Shown: piece after piece, positions 1-6,244 of the stretch
How the letters are laid out: each line of letters begins with the position of its first letter
How positions within the stretch are numbered: position 1 is the stretch's first letter
Source: a bacterium
GTDB lineage: Bacteria > NPL-UPA2 > JAGMAN01
DNA length: 12,056 bases
Direction of reading: 5' to 3'
Assembly: GCA_023130215.1 (NCBI GenBank)
Contig: JAGMAN010000121.1
Span: forward strand, 1-12,056
Made by a program: the position numbers and the translations under genes
The notes under the pieces: generated by a model
Told to the model about the DNA's origin: nothing
The model's input: the letters and a program-made list of their open reading frames with translations, nothing else
The model's database searches: none

Positions 1-22
1 ATTGTAAAGCCGAAATATAAGG

Positions 23-94
23 TCAGCCGAAAGTCCTGATATAAACTTTCGGGGGCGATTTTTCATAACCCTTTTTAAATTCTCGGGTTGGCAT
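23..94 (-). pseudogene. Truncated inverted copy of the miaB start
   Basis: On the minus strand an ATG at 94, preceded by the same AGGAG site as real miaB, opens the first 23 codons of MiaB. It ends in RTFG and then a TGA formed exactly where repeat identity stops (positions 23-25). In the intact gene the next codon is the conserved Cys24. The fragment therefore lacks all iron-sulfur ligands and cannot be functional. It is a by-product of the inverted duplication. Confidence 0.7.
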
Positions 95-180
95 TTATTT
101 TTCTCCTCAAAAAATAAAAAATTAAAGGGGGCAAACAAATTAAAAGCAAAAATCTTTTTGTGGGCGATTTTGATGTTTTT
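24..180. repeat. Left arm of a perfect 157-bp inverted repeat
   Basis: Compared base by base, this segment is the exact reverse complement of 4593-4749 (paired positions sum to 4773). Read on the minus strand it contains the end of a serine-recombinase frame, an AGGAG ribosome binding site, an ATG at 94 and the first codons of miaB. Identity stops at position 24 on the outer side and at 180 on the inner side. After a 41-nt insertion (181-221), weaker homology resumes at 222-238 (16 of 17 bases matching 4576-4592). Confidence 0.97.
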
Positions 181-271
181 GCGTCTTGCCCTTCAGGCAA
201 TCCGCAGGCCTTACGGCCTTTAAAAAGCAAATTTAATACCCCGCCCACCCAGCAGTCACTTTGTGACTGCT
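181..271. repeat. Three consecutive small hairpins upstream of the PHP-ATPase gene
   Basis: Three palindromes lie in 86 bases. The first is TTGCC/GGCAA (186-190 with 196-200, 5-nt loop). The second is AGGCC/GGCCT (206-210 with 215-219, 4-nt loop). The third is a 9-bp stem AGCAGTCAC/GTGACTGCT (251-259 with 263-271, TTT loop). The first two are inside the 41-nt segment (181-221) that interrupts the left copy of the recombinase tail. The third ends 10 nt before the ribosome binding site at 281-287. No T-tract follows, so a simple terminator is unlikely. A REP-like palindrome, a recombinase or transposase recognition structure, or an mRNA 5' structure are possible. No convincing promoter is visible here. 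Confidence 0.6.
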
Positions 272-296
272 TCCCCTTGAAAAGGAGTTAATTAAA

Positions 297-3104
297 ATGG
301 ATAAAGGTGCCCATTCTTACAAATGTGATTTTCAAGTTCATACTCCACGTGATATTAATTGGCATGGTCAAGGTGCTACTACTGACGCTGAGAGGAGAAC
401 ATACGCAGATGAGTTCATAGCTGCTTGCCGCGAAAAGGGATTAAATGCCGTTGCAATTACAGATCATCATGATTTAGTTTTCTTTAAATATGTTAAAGAG
501 GCAGCTGATAATGAGGTGGGTGAAGATAATAACCCAATTCCTCCAGAGAAAAGGATAATTGTATTTCCTGGTATGGAGTTGACACTTGCGAGACCACCGT
601 GTCAAGCCATTTTGATTTTAGATAGTGATTTCCCGGTAAATTTATTACCTACTTTACATCATAATCTCGCGATTACTCAAACAGACTCAACGGAAGATAA
701 ACAAGCGCCAGTGGAGAGATTAGAACGCATTCAGTCATTTGAGCAGTTATATGAATTATTAAATCAGCACGATTACCTAAAAGATAGATTTGTTGTATTA
801 CCTAATGTTAGCGAGAGCACCAATGTTACGCTTTTACGTTCAGGATTTCATGATTTTTATAAAAAAATGCCATGTGTGGGTGGCTATCTTGATGGTTCAT
901 ATGAGCAATTAGGGGAAGGTAATATTAGAATCTTAAGTGGGAGAGATAGGCATTATGGTCCCAAAAGATTAGGCATTTTTCAAACATCTGATAATAGGCG
1001 TCGCGACCATCATGATTTAGGCACACATGCGACTTGGGTTAAGTGGGCGATCCCTACTGCTGAAGCATTACGTCAAGCATGCCTTGCAAAAGAATCAAGA
1101 ATATCGCAAATAGATCCCGCGTTACCATCTGTATATGTAACTTCGGTAGATGTTTCTAACAGCAAGTTTATGGGACCTATTTATTTAGAGCTTAATCGTC
1201 AATATAACGCTTTAATTGGTGGGCGTGGTACAGGGAAATCGACGATTTTAGAATATTTACGATGGGGGTTGTGTGATCAACCGCCAGATTTTATTAAAAG
1301 TAGTGATTTTCCTGAGTTTCAGGAGAGAAGGAAGAATTTGATTGAAAAAACTCTCTTGGCTTTTGATTCAACAATTCAAATTTCATTTGTTAAAAATAAT
1401 GTTCCACATATTATTAGACGCAGATCACAATCTACTGAAATATTTCTTAAAATTGGTGATAGTGAATTTGAGCTTTGTAAAGAGTCCGATGTTAGAAATT
1501 TATTACCAATTCAAGCGTATAGCCAAAAACAACTAAGCAGTGTTGGGGTAAGCATTGAAGAGTTGAAGAGGTTGATTTATAGCCCCATTCGTCAAGTGCT
1601 GAATGAATTCAATTCTAAATTCAAAGAGTTATCTTCCGAAGTAAGAAATTGTTATGAATTAAGGCAAAGGAAAATGAGGATTCAAAAGGAAGTAGAGAAG
1701 GATGAGCTCGAGCTAAAATCATTGACTGAACAGGTCGATAATTTACGGAAAGGTTTAAAAGGAATATCTGATAAAGATCGAGAGATAATATCCATTCACA
1801 GTGTATATGAAGATGCCGATGGGTTGATTGAAGGATGGAGGGCGGAAATTCAGACAGTCAAAGAAGCTCTGGAGGATTTAAAATCAAAAGTAGAAGGATT
1901 ACCTGCCAAAGTTTCAAACGAGTTAGAGTTACCTAAGACTGATTTGGATATTATCTCAAAAATATCGAAAAAGTTAGAGGATATTTTTATTGCAATAAAT
2001 AAACAGATTTTGACAATTGATAATTTAGTTGGTTCAGAGAGTAAAGAAATAGGAGACTTGAATGGTTTAATTGATAAGTGGAGTACAGCCATCGATAGCC
2101 ATAGAAAAAAATATGAAGCCGCAAAGCAGAAATCAAGTTCACAAGAGGTTACCATTAAACAAATTCGACAATTGGAAAATCGTATTAAGGAAATTAAGAA
2201 ATATTTGTTGGATAAGAAACAAAGCATTCTGAAAGCTGGCGACCCCGAAGAGAAGTTTATAAAACTTAAAGAAAAATGGTTTGATATACATAAAAAGAGA
2301 GGAGATATTTTAGAGAAGCAATGCTCAGCATTGAGTAGATTATCGAATGATACATTACGGGCATCTTTAGGGAGAGGTAAAGGAGTTGTTATCCTCGAGC
2401 AAGCTTTAAAAGATACTTTAGCTGGTGCAAAAATACGCAAGGATAAAATAGAAGATTTATGTGTAAAAATAAGTGAGTCTCCAAATCCTGTGGCTCAATG
2501 GGATGATATTTTGTTGGAATTTGAACAGTTGGCTAATTTTGAAGCAGATGAGGAGTCGTCAATAGCTTTGCCTTCGACCCCCATTTTAGATAGTATCAGT
2601 TTTACAGCTAATGAAATCAAAAGGATGTCAGAAAAGCTGAATGTTGAGAATTGGATTGATTTATTTCTTGTAGAGTTAGATGATTTGCCTAATTTTGAGT
2701 ATAAAGCTCGAATAGGTGAGTATATCGATTTTTCAGATGCTTCAGCGGGGCAACAAGCTACAGCGCTTATGAATGCCCTGTTAAATCAAGAGGGCCCTCC
2801 TTTAGTCATTGATCAGCCAGAAGATGATTTAGATAATGAAATGGTTTCGGATATCTCCAGGTTAATCTGGGTTTCCAAAAAGCAAAGACAACTAATTTTT
2901 GCTAGTCATAACGCTAATATAGTTGTGAATGGTGATGCTGAATTGGTAGCTTGTTGTAGTTATAAAATTTCAGGGGATCAGTCAAAGGGAGTGGTTGAAA
3001 AGCAAGGGGCTATCGATATTGAAGAAATTAAAAATGAGATTACAAAGGTTATAGAGGGAGGCGAAGAAGCTTTTAAGCTGCGAAAAGAAAAATATGGTTT
3101 TTGA
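297..3104 (+). CDS. PHP-domain / SMC-like ATPase, TrlF-like, Ppl-type defence candidate
   Basis: The protein has 935 residues. The N-terminal third resembles a PHP metal-dependent phosphoesterase, with DFQVH (11-15), TDHHD (55-59) and PGMELT (91-96) supplying the usual metal-binding His, Asp and Glu. An ABC/SMC ATPase is split around a long charged coiled coil (about 430-790). Walker A is GGRGTGKST (308-316). C-terminally come the signature SAGQQ (816-820), Walker B and D-loop from IDQPEDD to DLDN (838-847), and a switch His in ASHN (H871). This order is that of TrlF-family AAA-like ATPases and of the single-gene anti-phage system Ppl, which suggests ATP-gated nucleic-acid or nucleotide hydrolysis during phage infection. 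AAAGGAG at 281-287 sits 9 nt before the ATG. The recombinase gene starts 27 nt after the stop. The family call is firm. The defence role is inferred from family and context. Confidence 0.88.
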   Translation: MDKGAHSYKCDFQVHTPRDINWHGQGATTDAERRTYADEFIAACREKGLNAVAITDHHDLVFFKYVKEAADNEVGEDNNPIPPEKRIIVFPGMELTLARPPCQAILILDSDFPVNLLPTLHHNLAITQTDSTEDKQAPVERLERIQSFEQLYELLNQHDYLKDRFVVLPNVSESTNVTLLRSGFHDFYKKMPCVGGYLDGSYEQLGEGNIRILSGRDRHYGPKRLGIFQTSDNRRRDHHDLGTHATWVKWAIPTAEALRQACLAKESRISQIDPALPSVYVTSVDVSNSKFMGPIYLELNRQYNALIGGRGTGKSTILEYLRWGLCDQPPDFIKSSDFPEFQERRKNLIEKTLLAFDSTIQISFVKNNVPHIIRRRSQSTEIFLKIGDSEFELCKESDVRNLLPIQAYSQKQLSSVGVSIEELKRLIYSPIRQVLNEFNSKFKELSSEVRNCYELRQRKMRIQKEVEKDELELKSLTEQVDNLRKGLKGISDKDREIISIHSVYEDADGLIEGWRAEIQTVKEALEDLKSKVEGLPAKVSNELELPKTDLDIISKISKKLEDIFIAINKQILTIDNLVGSESKEIGDLNGLIDKWSTAIDSHRKKYEAAKQKSSSQEVTIKQIRQLENRIKEIKKYLLDKKQSILKAGDPEEKFIKLKEKWFDIHKKRGDILEKQCSALSRLSNDTLRASLGRGKGVVILEQALKDTLAGAKIRKDKIEDLCVKISESPNPVAQWDDILLEFEQLANFEADEESSIALPSTPILDSISFTANEIKRMSEKLNVENWIDLFLVELDDLPNFEYKARIGEYIDFSDASAGQQATALMNALLNQEGPPLVIDQPEDDLDNEMVSDISRLIWVSKKQRQLIFASHNANIVVNGDAELVACCSYKISGDQSKGVVEKQGAIDIEEIKNEITKVIEGGEEAFKLRKEKYGF

Positions 3105-3131
3105 TTAGTGGGAAGTATGGAGAATGGAGAA

Positions 3132-4757
3132 ATGATGATTGCAATTTACATAAGAGTTTCTACAGAAGATCAAGTAAAAGAAGGCTATTCGCTTGAAGTG
3201 CAACGAGAATGTCTTAAGTCTTTTGCTAAGAGAGAAGGGTTTGAAATATTCAGAGCTTATCAAGATGATGGCATAAGTGGATACTCTACAGAGCGCCCTG
3301 CTTTAAAAGAACTTCTTAAGGACGCGGAACAAAAGAAATTTGATTTAGTTTTGGTTTACAAGATAGATAGATTCAGCAGGAATCTAAAAGATCTTCTCAA
3401 TCTTGTTGATAAATTATCTTCATACGGCGTTGGTTTTAAGTCTGCCACTGAGCCATTTGATACTACTACATCAGCAGGAAAACTTATGTTTCAGCAGTTG
3501 GGAAGTTTTGCTGAGTTTGAAAGGAATAGAATTGCTGAGAGAGTGTTCCCGGGGATGATTAAGGGAGTTCAACAAGGTAATTGGCAAGGAGCGAGATATT
3601 CGCCTTATGGGTATAGATATAATAAAACAGAGAAACTTCTCGAGATTGATGAGGAAGAAGCTAATGTTGTAAAGATTATTTATACAATGTGTCTTGCTGG
3701 AAAAAGTATATGTAGTATTACCGAATACTTAACGAAGAAGAAATATAGAAATAGGAAAGGAAATATTTTTACTACAAAGTTGATCGGTGATATTTTAAAA
3801 AATAGAATTTATGCCGGCAAACTTGTCTGGAATAGACATCATTATGATAAAACTAAGAAAACGAAAAAAGGTTATGCCTATATAAAGAATTCCCCGGATA
3901 AAATAATAATCGCTCAGGGGAAACATAAACCTATGATTTCAGAAGAAGATTTTGAACTTGCGCAGGAAAAGCTCAAAATCAGGAGAATTGAGATAAAGAA
4001 AAAGGCGGGCGATTATCCTTTGTCAGGAATTCTTTATTGTGCTAAGTGTAATCATAAATATTTAGGCAGGTCTGCTATTTCTAATCACCGAACCGGTGCA
4101 AAGAAGAGATGGTATCGGTGTTCAGCTTACCAGACAAGTTTTATAAGATGTAAGAATAAGGGTATTAAATCTCTGGAAATTGAGTCAGAAGTCGCAGAAA
4201 TCTTGGAAACATTATTGAAAAATGATAAGCTTAAGACAAGCCGATGGACAAATATGACCGCGGCGAATTTTCCTGTTTTTGCAGAAAGCGCAAAAACTGA
4301 CCTTGAGAAGGTCAAAAATAGGCTCAAAACTAACCTTGAAAAACAGTCCAAATTAACCGACGCCTATTTGGAAAGTTTGCTGAGTGAGGAACTATACAAG
4401 CAGAAGAACGAAGGACTAAGGCAAGAGGAAGAAGAGCTGAAGAAACGTATTGCTCTGCAAGAAGTTAGAGAAATTGAGAGGGAGCGTTCAAAGGACTATC
4501 TTAACAGGGTGGAGGAGTTTTTAGAAGGCTATGACCCCAACAAGAAAGTGATGGACAAAGAGACTAAAAAACTTATATTAAATCTGCTTTTTAAAAACAT
4601 CAAAATCGCCCACAAAAAGATTTTTGCTTTTAATTTGTTTGCCCCCTTTAATTTTTTATTTTTTGAGGAGAAAAATAAATGCCAACCCGAGAATTTAAAA
4701 AGGGTTATGAAAAATCGCCCCCGAAAGTTTATATCAGGACTTTCGGCTGTCAGATGA
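3132..4757 (+). CDS. Large serine recombinase (resolvase/invertase family)
   Basis: The protein has 541 residues from ATG 3132. This start has GGAG 9 nt upstream (3119-3122) and puts the IYIRVS motif at the N-terminus. In-frame GTG 3108 and ATG 3117 lack a good site. The order is a resolvase catalytic domain (about 2-140; nucleophile Ser10 in RVSTEDQ, DRFSR at 79-83, long helix with FAEFERNRIAERV), a recombinase domain (about 155-255), a zinc ribbon (C303, C306, C330, C340), and a coiled coil (about 365-450). This is a typical complete large serine integrase or invertase, which cuts both strands through a phosphoserine link. The C-terminus after the usual IFAFNLFAPFNFLF segment runs 79 nt into miaB in another frame, so the final ~25 residues are probably read-through of target DNA. 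It likely moves or inverts the neighbouring ATPase gene. Confidence 0.93.
   Translation: MMIAIYIRVSTEDQVKEGYSLEVQRECLKSFAKREGFEIFRAYQDDGISGYSTERPALKELLKDAEQKKFDLVLVYKIDRFSRNLKDLLNLVDKLSSYGVGFKSATEPFDTTTSAGKLMFQQLGSFAEFERNRIAERVFPGMIKGVQQGNWQGARYSPYGYRYNKTEKLLEIDEEEANVVKIIYTMCLAGKSICSITEYLTKKKYRNRKGNIFTTKLIGDILKNRIYAGKLVWNRHHYDKTKKTKKGYAYIKNSPDKIIIAQGKHKPMISEEDFELAQEKLKIRRIEIKKKAGDYPLSGILYCAKCNHKYLGRSAISNHRTGAKKRWYRCSAYQTSFIRCKNKGIKSLEIESEVAEILETLLKNDKLKTSRWTNMTAANFPVFAESAKTDLEKVKNRLKTNLEKQSKLTDAYLESLLSEELYKQKNEGLRQEEEELKKRIALQEVREIERERSKDYLNRVEEFLEGYDPNKKVMDKETKKLILNLLFKNIKIAHKKIFAFNLFAPFNFLFFEEKNKCQPENLKRVMKNRPRKFISGLSAVR
4593..4749. repeat. Right arm of a perfect 157-bp inverted repeat
   Basis: This is the exact reverse complement of 24-180. 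Unlike the left arm, it lies in functional context. It spans the last part of the serine-recombinase frame, the miaB ribosome binding site (GAGGAG, 4665-4670), the miaB ATG (4679) and miaB codons 1-23, ending in codon 24. The arm includes native miaB coding sequence, so it is not a classical transposon terminal repeat. It is better described as an inverted duplication of the junction between the element and miaB. Confidence 0.97.
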
Positions 4758-6244
4758 ATGAGTGTGACTCGGAGGTGATGGCGGGGCTGCTGGTGGGGGA
4801 TGGGTATGAGATGGCAGGGGATGTACCATCTGCTGATGTTATTTTGTTTAATACCTGCAGTGTGCGCCGTCATGCTGAGGAGAGGGTCTGGAGTGAGTTG
4901 GGTAGGGTAGGGCAGTTGAAGAAAAAAAGGCCGGAGCTTATACTGGGGGTTTGCGGTTGCATGGCTCAGAAGGAGGGGGTAAATATCCTAAATAGGGCTC
5001 CTTATGTTGACTTAGTCTGTGGAACTTATCATTTTGGAGAGATTTCCCGGTTGCTGGACAGAGTAAGAAAAGATGGAAGGCGGATAGTTGATGTAGGGGA
5101 GAAGGAGACTTGGGAAGAGGATGTTGGAAATAAGGATGCGGGGGAAAAGGATGTTAGGGGTAAGGATGTCGGAGAGACGGATGCAAGAAAGGGAGATGTG
5201 CAAAAGACAGATACAGGGAAGGCAGATGTAAGAAGGGAAAATGTTGGAGAGACGGATGCAAGAAAGGGAGATGTGGGGAAGGCAGATTGGGAGAAGGCAG
5301 ACGTCGTGAGGGGGGATAGTAAGGAGAAAGAAGAGGCTATCCTTTCTTATTCTACCTCCTGTTCTCGTCTGCCCAGAGATGGAAGGGTAAAGACGTGGGT
5401 GTCCATCATGCGGGGCTGTAATAATTATTGTGCCTATTGCGTGGTTCCGTATCTTAGAGGCAGGGAGAGGAGCAGACCTTTAGATGAGATTGTGCAAGAG
5501 ATAAAGGGACTGGCCGAAGAGGGTTACAAGGAGGTTACTCTGCTCGGGCAGAATGTGAATAGTTACCCGGGATTTGTGGACTTATTAAAAGGGGTAAATA
5601 AAATTGATGGGATAGAGCGAATTCGTTTCGTTACCTCTCATCCACGGGATATAACTGAGGAGATGCTAAGGGTAGTATCTCAGTCAGAGAAAATCTGCGA
5701 GCATCTTCATCTTCCGCTTCAAGCCGGCTCGGATAAAATCCTGAAGAGAATGAACAGGGGATACACAAGAGAGTTCTACGAAGACCTCATCAAGAAAGCC
5801 CGCAAGCTAATACCGGGAGTGAGTATTACCACTGACCTCATCGTTGGTTTTCCGGGAGAGAAAGAGGAAGATTTTGAAGATACTCTCAATTTAGTTAAGG
5901 AATTGGAATTCGATGGGGCTTTTATCTACAAGTATTCTCATCGCCCTGGAACAGCGGCCGCTAAAATGGACGGAGGTGTTGTGGAGGAAGTGAAGAAGGA
6001 GAGGCTCCACCGGCTTCAGGAACTTCAAGAGAAAATAAGTGGGAAGAAGAATGAGGGATTAGTTAATCAGGAGGTTGAAGTCTTAGTGGAGGGGCCGAGC
6101 AAGAAGGTTCCGCTTAGGCTCTATGGCAGGACCCGCACCAATAAGATAGTCATTTTTGAAGGTGTGGAGGAACTGGTCGGTAAATTGATTAAAGTTAGAA
6201 TTAAAGAAGTTGGTCCCTGGACGCTATTTGGAAGTCTGAATTGA
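4679..6244 (+). CDS. miaB: tRNA-2-methylthio-N6-dimethylallyladenosine synthase MiaB
   Basis: MiaB is a radical-SAM methylthiotransferase that adds a methylthio group to C2 of i6A37 in tRNAs, using two [4Fe-4S] clusters. The N-terminal domain shows the three cluster ligands C24 (TFGCQMN), C60 (NTCSVR) and C94 (GCMAQ). The radical-SAM motif is C247-x3-C251-x2-C254 (GCNNYCAYC). The last ~60 residues form a TRAM RNA-binding domain ending in GPWTLFGSLN. At 521 residues it is about 70-80 longer than usual. The excess is a pentapeptide-repeat insert (147-216) between the N-terminal and radical-SAM domains. GAGGAG at 4665-4670 is 8 nt before the ATG. The start region lies inside the right inverted-repeat arm and overlaps the recombinase 3' end by 79 nt. 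Its substrate is made by MiaA, encoded at 7404-8318. Confidence 0.96.
   Translation: MPTREFKKGYEKSPPKVYIRTFGCQMNECDSEVMAGLLVGDGYEMAGDVPSADVILFNTCSVRRHAEERVWSELGRVGQLKKKRPELILGVCGCMAQKEGVNILNRAPYVDLVCGTYHFGEISRLLDRVRKDGRRIVDVGEKETWEEDVGNKDAGEKDVRGKDVGETDARKGDVQKTDTGKADVRRENVGETDARKGDVGKADWEKADVVRGDSKEKEEAILSYSTSCSRLPRDGRVKTWVSIMRGCNNYCAYCVVPYLRGRERSRPLDEIVQEIKGLAEEGYKEVTLLGQNVNSYPGFVDLLKGVNKIDGIERIRFVTSHPRDITEEMLRVVSQSEKICEHLHLPLQAGSDKILKRMNRGYTREFYEDLIKKARKLIPGVSITTDLIVGFPGEKEEDFEDTLNLVKELEFDGAFIYKYSHRPGTAAAKMDGGVVEEVKKERLHRLQELQEKISGKKNEGLVNQEVEVLVEGPSKKVPLRLYGRTRTNKIVIFEGVEELVGKLIKVRIKEVGPWTLFGSLN
5117..5326 (+). repeat. Fourteen tandem 15-nt units encoding pentapeptides inside miaB
   Basis: Codons 147-216 of miaB divide cleanly into 14 five-residue units such as EDVGN, KDAGE, KDVRG, TDARK, GDVQK, ADVRR and GDVGK. 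Asp is at position 2 in 13 of 14 units, Val is common at position 3, and Lys/Arg/Glu fill the rest. A 30-bp stretch recurs exactly at 5171-5200 and 5246-5275, offset by 75 nt (five units), which shows expansion by slippage or unequal exchange. The insert is highly charged and probably disordered. It sits in the linker between the N-terminal and radical-SAM domains, where length variation should be tolerated. Confidence 0.9.

Follow-up and report, generated by a model that had tools for sequence, protein, structure and literature searches.

The window, meaning the whole stretch of DNA analysed here, is a complete 12,056-bp contig (G000:C26) from a 1.01-Mb assembly of 136 contigs. Near its left end lies an inverted repeat whose two arms enclose only two long open reading frames, both in the same direction (297-3104 and 3108-4757), and the second of these overlaps the start of miaB. 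In the list below, P and P' are the two halves of an attP-like site and the core is the short motif at which they meet.

1-23, minus strand: start of a P' half-site, the outer flank of the left arm, cut off where the contig stops; inversion would make it the source of the alternative recombinase C-terminus ..SADLIFRLYN
24-180, minus strand: left arm, comprising the inverted recombinase tail, a ribosome-binding site, the miaB start and its codons as far as the TTCGGCTG core; matches the reverse complement of 4593-4749 at 100%, with homologous sites (S2, see below) in ~30 relatives
181-296, no strand: stretch from the left arm to the ATPase gene, containing GC-rich hairpins; inversion would place it upstream of miaB
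297-3104, plus strand: PHP + SMC/AAA ATPase of 935 aa, a Ppl-like defence protein and the cargo of the segment (Pfam PF02463, PF13476 (AAA_23), PF13304 and PF02811; PADLOC Ppl)
3108-4757, plus strand: large serine recombinase of 549 aa, its 3' end overlapping miaB (PF00239, PF07508, PF13408; PDB matches)
4593-4749, plus strand: right arm, the P half of attR, comprising the last recombinase codons, an AGGAG-type ribosome-binding site and the miaB start, and ending in TTCGGCTG (repeat and site comparison; synonymous-codon conservation is raised)
4742-4749, plus strand: core TTCGGCTG, the end of arm identity, mirrored at 24-31; boundary identical in 14 of 15 measured copies
4679-6244, plus strand: target gene miaB, encoding a tRNA methylthiotransferase, with its 5' end within the arm (PF00919, PF04055, PF01938)

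The first-pass annotation had described a defence-type ATPase and a serine recombinase, and both assignments hold. The ATPase joins a PHP domain to an ATPase that matches the PADLOC Ppl model (PDLC02208) at E 3.3e-43, scoring in two partial stretches, and on this basis it is probably a Ppl-type protein and a putative anti-phage gene. The recombinase has the Resolvase (PF00239, 5e-43), Recombinase (PF07508, 2e-19) and zinc ribbon (PF13408, 1e-9) domains, and direct reading finds the catalytic serine motif YxRVSTxxQ as MIAIYIRVSTEDQ. Its PDB matches include the TP901-1 and SPbeta integrases. By these sequence features the enzyme is a member of the large serine integrases, of the integrase type and predicted to target miaB codons. 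A small serine invertase of the Hin/Gin kind (~190 aa, short dix/gix sites) was considered and ruled out by the length of 549 aa and the integrase domains. In miaB itself, a charged tandem-repeat insertion (5080-5320; 15-nt units, for example ETDARKGDVQKTDTGKADVRRENVGETDARKGDV) lies between the UPF0004 and radical SAM domains.

The repeat search bears out the perfect 157-bp inverted repeats reported earlier: the arms are 100% complementary over 157 nt, with a spacing of 4412 nt, and an exact inverted repeat of this length cannot be chance. Besides the two arms, the arm sequence has no further occurrence anywhere in the 1.01-Mb assembly. The left arm begins 23 bp from the contig end. Beyond the arm, inverted similarity picks up again (219-238 vs 4576-4595, 95%), past a 38-bp insertion on the left side; at 181-240 this insertion and GC-rich hairpins break the homology of the left arm with the recombinase tail. 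The outer 23 bases, ACCTTATATTTCGGCTTTACAAT, fit the P' half-site of a relative (L182) at all but 3 of 23 positions and are therefore part of the miaB-island site scheme described below; they also resemble the P' of L055 and L052. Together with these bases, the left arm is a full attP-like site (S2). A promoter search of the left arm and intergenic region (1-420) returned a single weak promoter-like match, at chance level. When 24-4749 is flipped in silico, miaB is unchanged to the letter and the recombinase C-terminus goes from ..GLSAVR (stop) to ..GLSADLIFRLYN.., just as the first-pass annotation had foreseen for both genes.

A recombinase scan over contigs from one genome per species gave 29 loci, most of them in metagenome-assembled genomes (MAGs) labelled Omnitrophota, Elusimicrobia, Auribacterota or unnamed bacteria, and phylum-level searches added further copies. 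The recombinase 3' end overlaps the miaB 5' end in most of the 29 loci, and the last residues of the homologous recombinases (LSAVR, SDAR, SAAK) are an out-of-frame reading of the miaB codons FGCQMN. Self-comparison revealed inverted arms of ~90-180 bp in many of these loci; in total ~30 recombinase copies have their own inverted arm, two of them weak (L033, 72%; L182, 68%) and one a 33-bp stub at a contig end (L038). The outer arm edge falls exactly at a TTCGG[N]TG core, which sits within the FGCQMN codons, in 14 of the 15 copies with both cores readable, despite differing flanks. A counterpart of the window is L184, from an independent MAG, which has the gene pair at miaB in the same ATPase-recombinase-miaB order. 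Its PHP-ATPase (PADLOC Ppl, 8e-50) occupies the same position and is 57% identical to the window ATPase over the full length, and far from lacking an inverted repeat the pair has perfect 208-bp arms. No inverted arm was found in the sequence examined for recombinases of another branch (L041, L043, L044, L046-L048, L050, L051 and L053); integration therefore does not require an inverted copy. In L031 and L186 the recombinase genes have stops or a frameshift while the att sites are retained, and these are possibly decaying units. The viral contigs searched contained no relative, and a viral origin was rejected on that ground.

Comparison of the relatives distinguishes three kinds of site that have the TTCGG[N]TG core in common. 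S3 (attR) consists of the recombinase tail followed by miaB. S2 consists of the recombinase tail followed by P' and bounds the recombinase segment on the left, in inverted orientation. In S1 (attL), P' is preceded by a short ORF resembling a native miaB start; in L092 this ORF reads MLKFFITTFG and directly follows a TATAAT-like box. P' starts with ACC, AAC, AGT or GCC. Read in the frame of the recombinase, it specifies a different C-terminus, for example DELWLRLHRTVHPILKTLYC, with the pattern D-x-W-x-x-x-Y-(R/K) where the left flank continues the frame. This alternative C-terminus is in use by recombinases joined to P' in L033, L048, L100, L181, G166 and G732. Each arm is half of an attachment site, the right one joined to miaB (attR) and the left one to a P' half-site.

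The attL and attR sites share a core at a defined target gene across the relatives, attR being present in the window and in relatives and attL in L092, G153 and G159. In other genomes the attL, with its native miaB start and P', is found at distances of up to 15 kb, on the far side of defence genes. In L092, attL and S2 enclose 14.8 kb of defence genes (470-15303) within ~180-bp P' inverted repeats; the content is a type III restriction-modification pair, a Ppl-like ATPase, PDC-M68 and E1-like genes, and chromosomal RND-efflux genes lie outside this run. Within each of the genomes G152, G153 and G159 the P' sequences at S1 and S2 are the same or almost the same, the attL matches the P' of S2 within G153 and G159, and a P' inverted repeat of >260 bp lies between two units in G732. 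The three layouts and the within-genome P' matches therefore give a grammar of miaB-5' joined to P', cargo, reversed P' joined to reversed P, the cargo-recombinase segment, and P joined to miaB. The invertible piece is one part of a larger multi-gene island. Two long contigs (G166:C51, 44001-104000; G732:C15, 585001-625000) each have two recombinase units with P' half-sites in common, which suggests stacking and rearrangement of islands. A site-pattern search of the window's own assembly for its attL returned only the two arms, and the miaB genes of order-level relatives gave no synteny handle for locating it. A symmetry search around the core gave no clear centre for the crossover dinucleotide.

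Close copies with different neighbours locate the exchange. Between the copies in G166 and G732, identity is 97.6% across 2173 bp and stops at the core, beyond which G166 continues into P' and G732 into miaB. The same change between miaB and P' at the core separates L100 from L028 (95% over the recombinase tail), L181 from L186 (90%) and L048 from L046 (88%), which makes four pairs of close copies in all. Inverted sites flank a segment that carries a recombinase, as in an invertible element, and the two orientations in nature are represented by one case, L171 flipped vs its relatives. In L171 the recombinase segment is reversed: an arm links miaB to a MerR-like gene and the recombinase at their 5' side, with the recombinase pointing away. 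L171 is a direct natural example of the flipped state, given by one metagenome contig that ends inside the far arm and whose orientation may be an assembly choice. The same could hold for the orientation in any single contig, arms of 150-210 bp being hard for short-read assemblers. More than 20 assembled copies face miaB and L171 alone faces away, these orientations being read from assembled contigs across different genomes.

The cargo inside the arms varies widely. It includes Ppl-like ATPases (window, L034, L184), PsyrTA (L033), SIR2 proteins (L180, L056), AbiV/HEPN proteins (L031, L170), PDC-S39 (L183) and a HerA-like protein (L032); L029 has only a weak TIR-effector match, the cargo of L030, L042 and L186 is without assignment, and many Elusimicrobia copies consist of just a small gene and the recombinase. 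Outside the arms lie Gabija (L034), AbiEi/AbiEii (L033), HsdR (L056) and an AbiU-like protein (L052). A gene for a 60-65-aa MerR-like HTH protein, a candidate recombination directionality factor, precedes the recombinase or cargo in L041, L042, L169, L171, L183, L184 and L186, and adjoins one or the other at L171:8374-8571, L042:1776-1964, L183:412-594 and L184:320-613; the window has no such gene. In a relative from the same order (L193, G004:C24, 8415-14366), AbiEi/AbiEii-like and other cargo genes in common with L182 stand upstream of miaB, and the stretch read contains no recombinase.

The arms are conserved as DNA. In recombinase pairs at 45-65% protein identity, the share of identical codons at positions with the same residue is 37% over the recombinase body and 44% over the last 40 codons ahead of the arm; inside the arm it reaches 71% upstream of the miaB start and 70% in the miaB overlap. 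This increase indicates conservation of the DNA past what coding demands, setting in where the duplicated arm starts; gene conversion or horizontal transfer could contribute to this. Within most genomes the two arms are 92.7-100% identical, whereas the median between genomes is near 0.55. Gene conversion is suggested by this high within-genome identity and by where the arm ends on its inner side, since simple site-specific inversion leaves both unexplained, and host homologous recombination may be the cause of the identity.

A unifying model, which we consider probable, is a serine-integrase defence island at miaB with two inverted attP sites, in which the recombinase segment is invertible and the miaB 5' end is kept intact. 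The window would be the right-hand end of such an island, for which the large serine recombinase used the conserved FGCQMN codons of miaB as its integration target. The attP would lie inside the 3' end of the recombinase gene, and integration would therefore fuse the recombinase tail to miaB (attR), the tail then providing miaB with replacements for its ribosome-binding site, start codon and opening codons, with the native miaB start left behind at attL. A second attP P-half, inverted and joined to P', would stand at the other end of the recombinase segment, and recombination between this attP-like site and attR would invert the segment with its recombinase and one defence gene, swapping the recombinase C-terminus between ..LSAVR (stop) and ..LSADLIFRLY.. 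while miaB stays intact because the arms are identical. The sites, boundaries, grammar, neighbour switches at the core and both orientations are present in the assembled relatives; from them we infer enzyme-catalysed inversion in cells, its reversibility and any change in how the defence gene or miaB is expressed. The earlier proposal of a self-inverting defence cassette thus stands as to the biological repeats, the serine recombinase and the opposite orientation of the recombinase segment in L171. Its larger frame differs, the cassette being a segment within a multi-gene miaB island.

The first-pass annotation had named a chimera of assembly or amplification as its alternative, in which the left arm would be an artefact of the contig end. 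The left arm does lie 23 bp from that end, and the arm is at or near a contig end (within ~140 bp) in ~20 of the 30 copies. However, independent MAGs of several phyla share the design and the core boundary; several arms sit well inside long contigs (G166, 808 kb; G732, 730 kb; L034; L052), the 23 bases outside the left arm agree with conserved P' half-sites, and the left arm has extended homology past the arm, broken by the 38-bp insertion. A chimera is therefore rejected as extremely improbable, and in place of an assembly error the locus appears to be a mobile defence island, widespread and with one reversible segment. It is also improbable, if less extremely so, that the arms are terminal inverted repeats of a transposon-like unit of recombinase and one cargo gene moving between P' and miaB targets. 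Near-identical units do adjoin miaB in G732 and P' in G166, but the flanks are always P' or miaB and never random sequence, and with a core that is not palindromic inverted ends should invert, not excise.

The two remaining readings concern how, or whether, the segment turns. Host homologous recombination between the long perfect arms might invert it, leaving the recombinase with integration and excision only: arms of 150-210 bp exceed what a serine integrase site needs, their within-genome identity points to homologous exchange, and a RecA-type exchange between them yields the same inverted product. The neighbour switches of close copies nevertheless fall at the core, and we regard this reading as unlikely. 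Slightly less so, but still doubtful, is a static island, in which the inverted attP copy is a relic or by-product of integration, held identical by gene conversion, with no inversion at a meaningful rate. The preponderance of copies facing miaB, in orientations compared between genomes and not within one population, is what such an island would give. Against it stand the flipped L171, the in-frame miaB start and ribosome-binding site kept in left arms, and the conservation of arm DNA past coding need. Contig breaks also cluster at the arms, as expected from mixed orientations, although any repeat this long could equally produce them. We retain the invertible island as the preferred reading.

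Several known systems resemble this arrangement in part. Like the large serine integrases TP901-1, SPbeta SprA/YokA and A118, the window enzyme has the Resolvase-Recombinase-zinc ribbon architecture, an attP beside or inside the integrase gene and a protein-coding target; unlike them, its gene overlaps the target, a second, inverted attP-like site is present, and the C-terminus is set by the site that follows. SCCmec/Ccr islands likewise use large serine recombinases, an RNA-modification target gene and stacked cassettes rich in defence genes, but they occupy the 3' end of rlmH with direct att sites, whereas the miaB islands occupy the 5' end with alternating inverted sites. The cargo ATPase has the PHP domain and SMC-like ATPase layout of Ppl (PDLC02208), from which its scoring in two partial stretches sets it apart. 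In dusA islands, too, the 5' end of a tRNA-modification gene is replaced by the island's own sequence, although the integrase family and target gene are different and the passages covered of that report mention no inverted attP pair or invertible segment (PMC4482086). That small serine recombinases can invert DNA is well established (PMC8987985), and the Hin/Gin/Pin invertases similarly have a serine recombinase in or beside a segment with inverted sites (PMC8987985; PMC12529663); theirs are small enzymes with short sites, in contrast to the large integrase, 157-bp arms and miaB target of the window. In the open-access literature we found no paper on miaB with a serine integrase and islands, or on miaB islands with an inverted attP pair, which is weak evidence that such islands are new.

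These islands suggest a possible route for shuffling and flipping defence genes in poorly studied phyla (Omnitrophota, Elusimicrobia, Auribacterota), by an integrase whose tail, present as two mirror copies, carries the start of the target gene and so keeps that gene readable. Such islands could be annotated automatically from the site grammar, which is sufficiently explicit, and their arms may explain a recurrent break point of metagenome assemblies. More tentatively, and with a little under even confidence, we propose a class of miaB defence islands built of alternating invertible segments, cargo within inverted P' halves and the recombinase with one defence gene within inverted P halves, that are flipped, stacked and exchanged by one large serine integrase at a single core, the arms doubling as the translation start of miaB. 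If this is true, orientation would set the integrase C-terminus, and phase variation might couple defence and tRNA modification.
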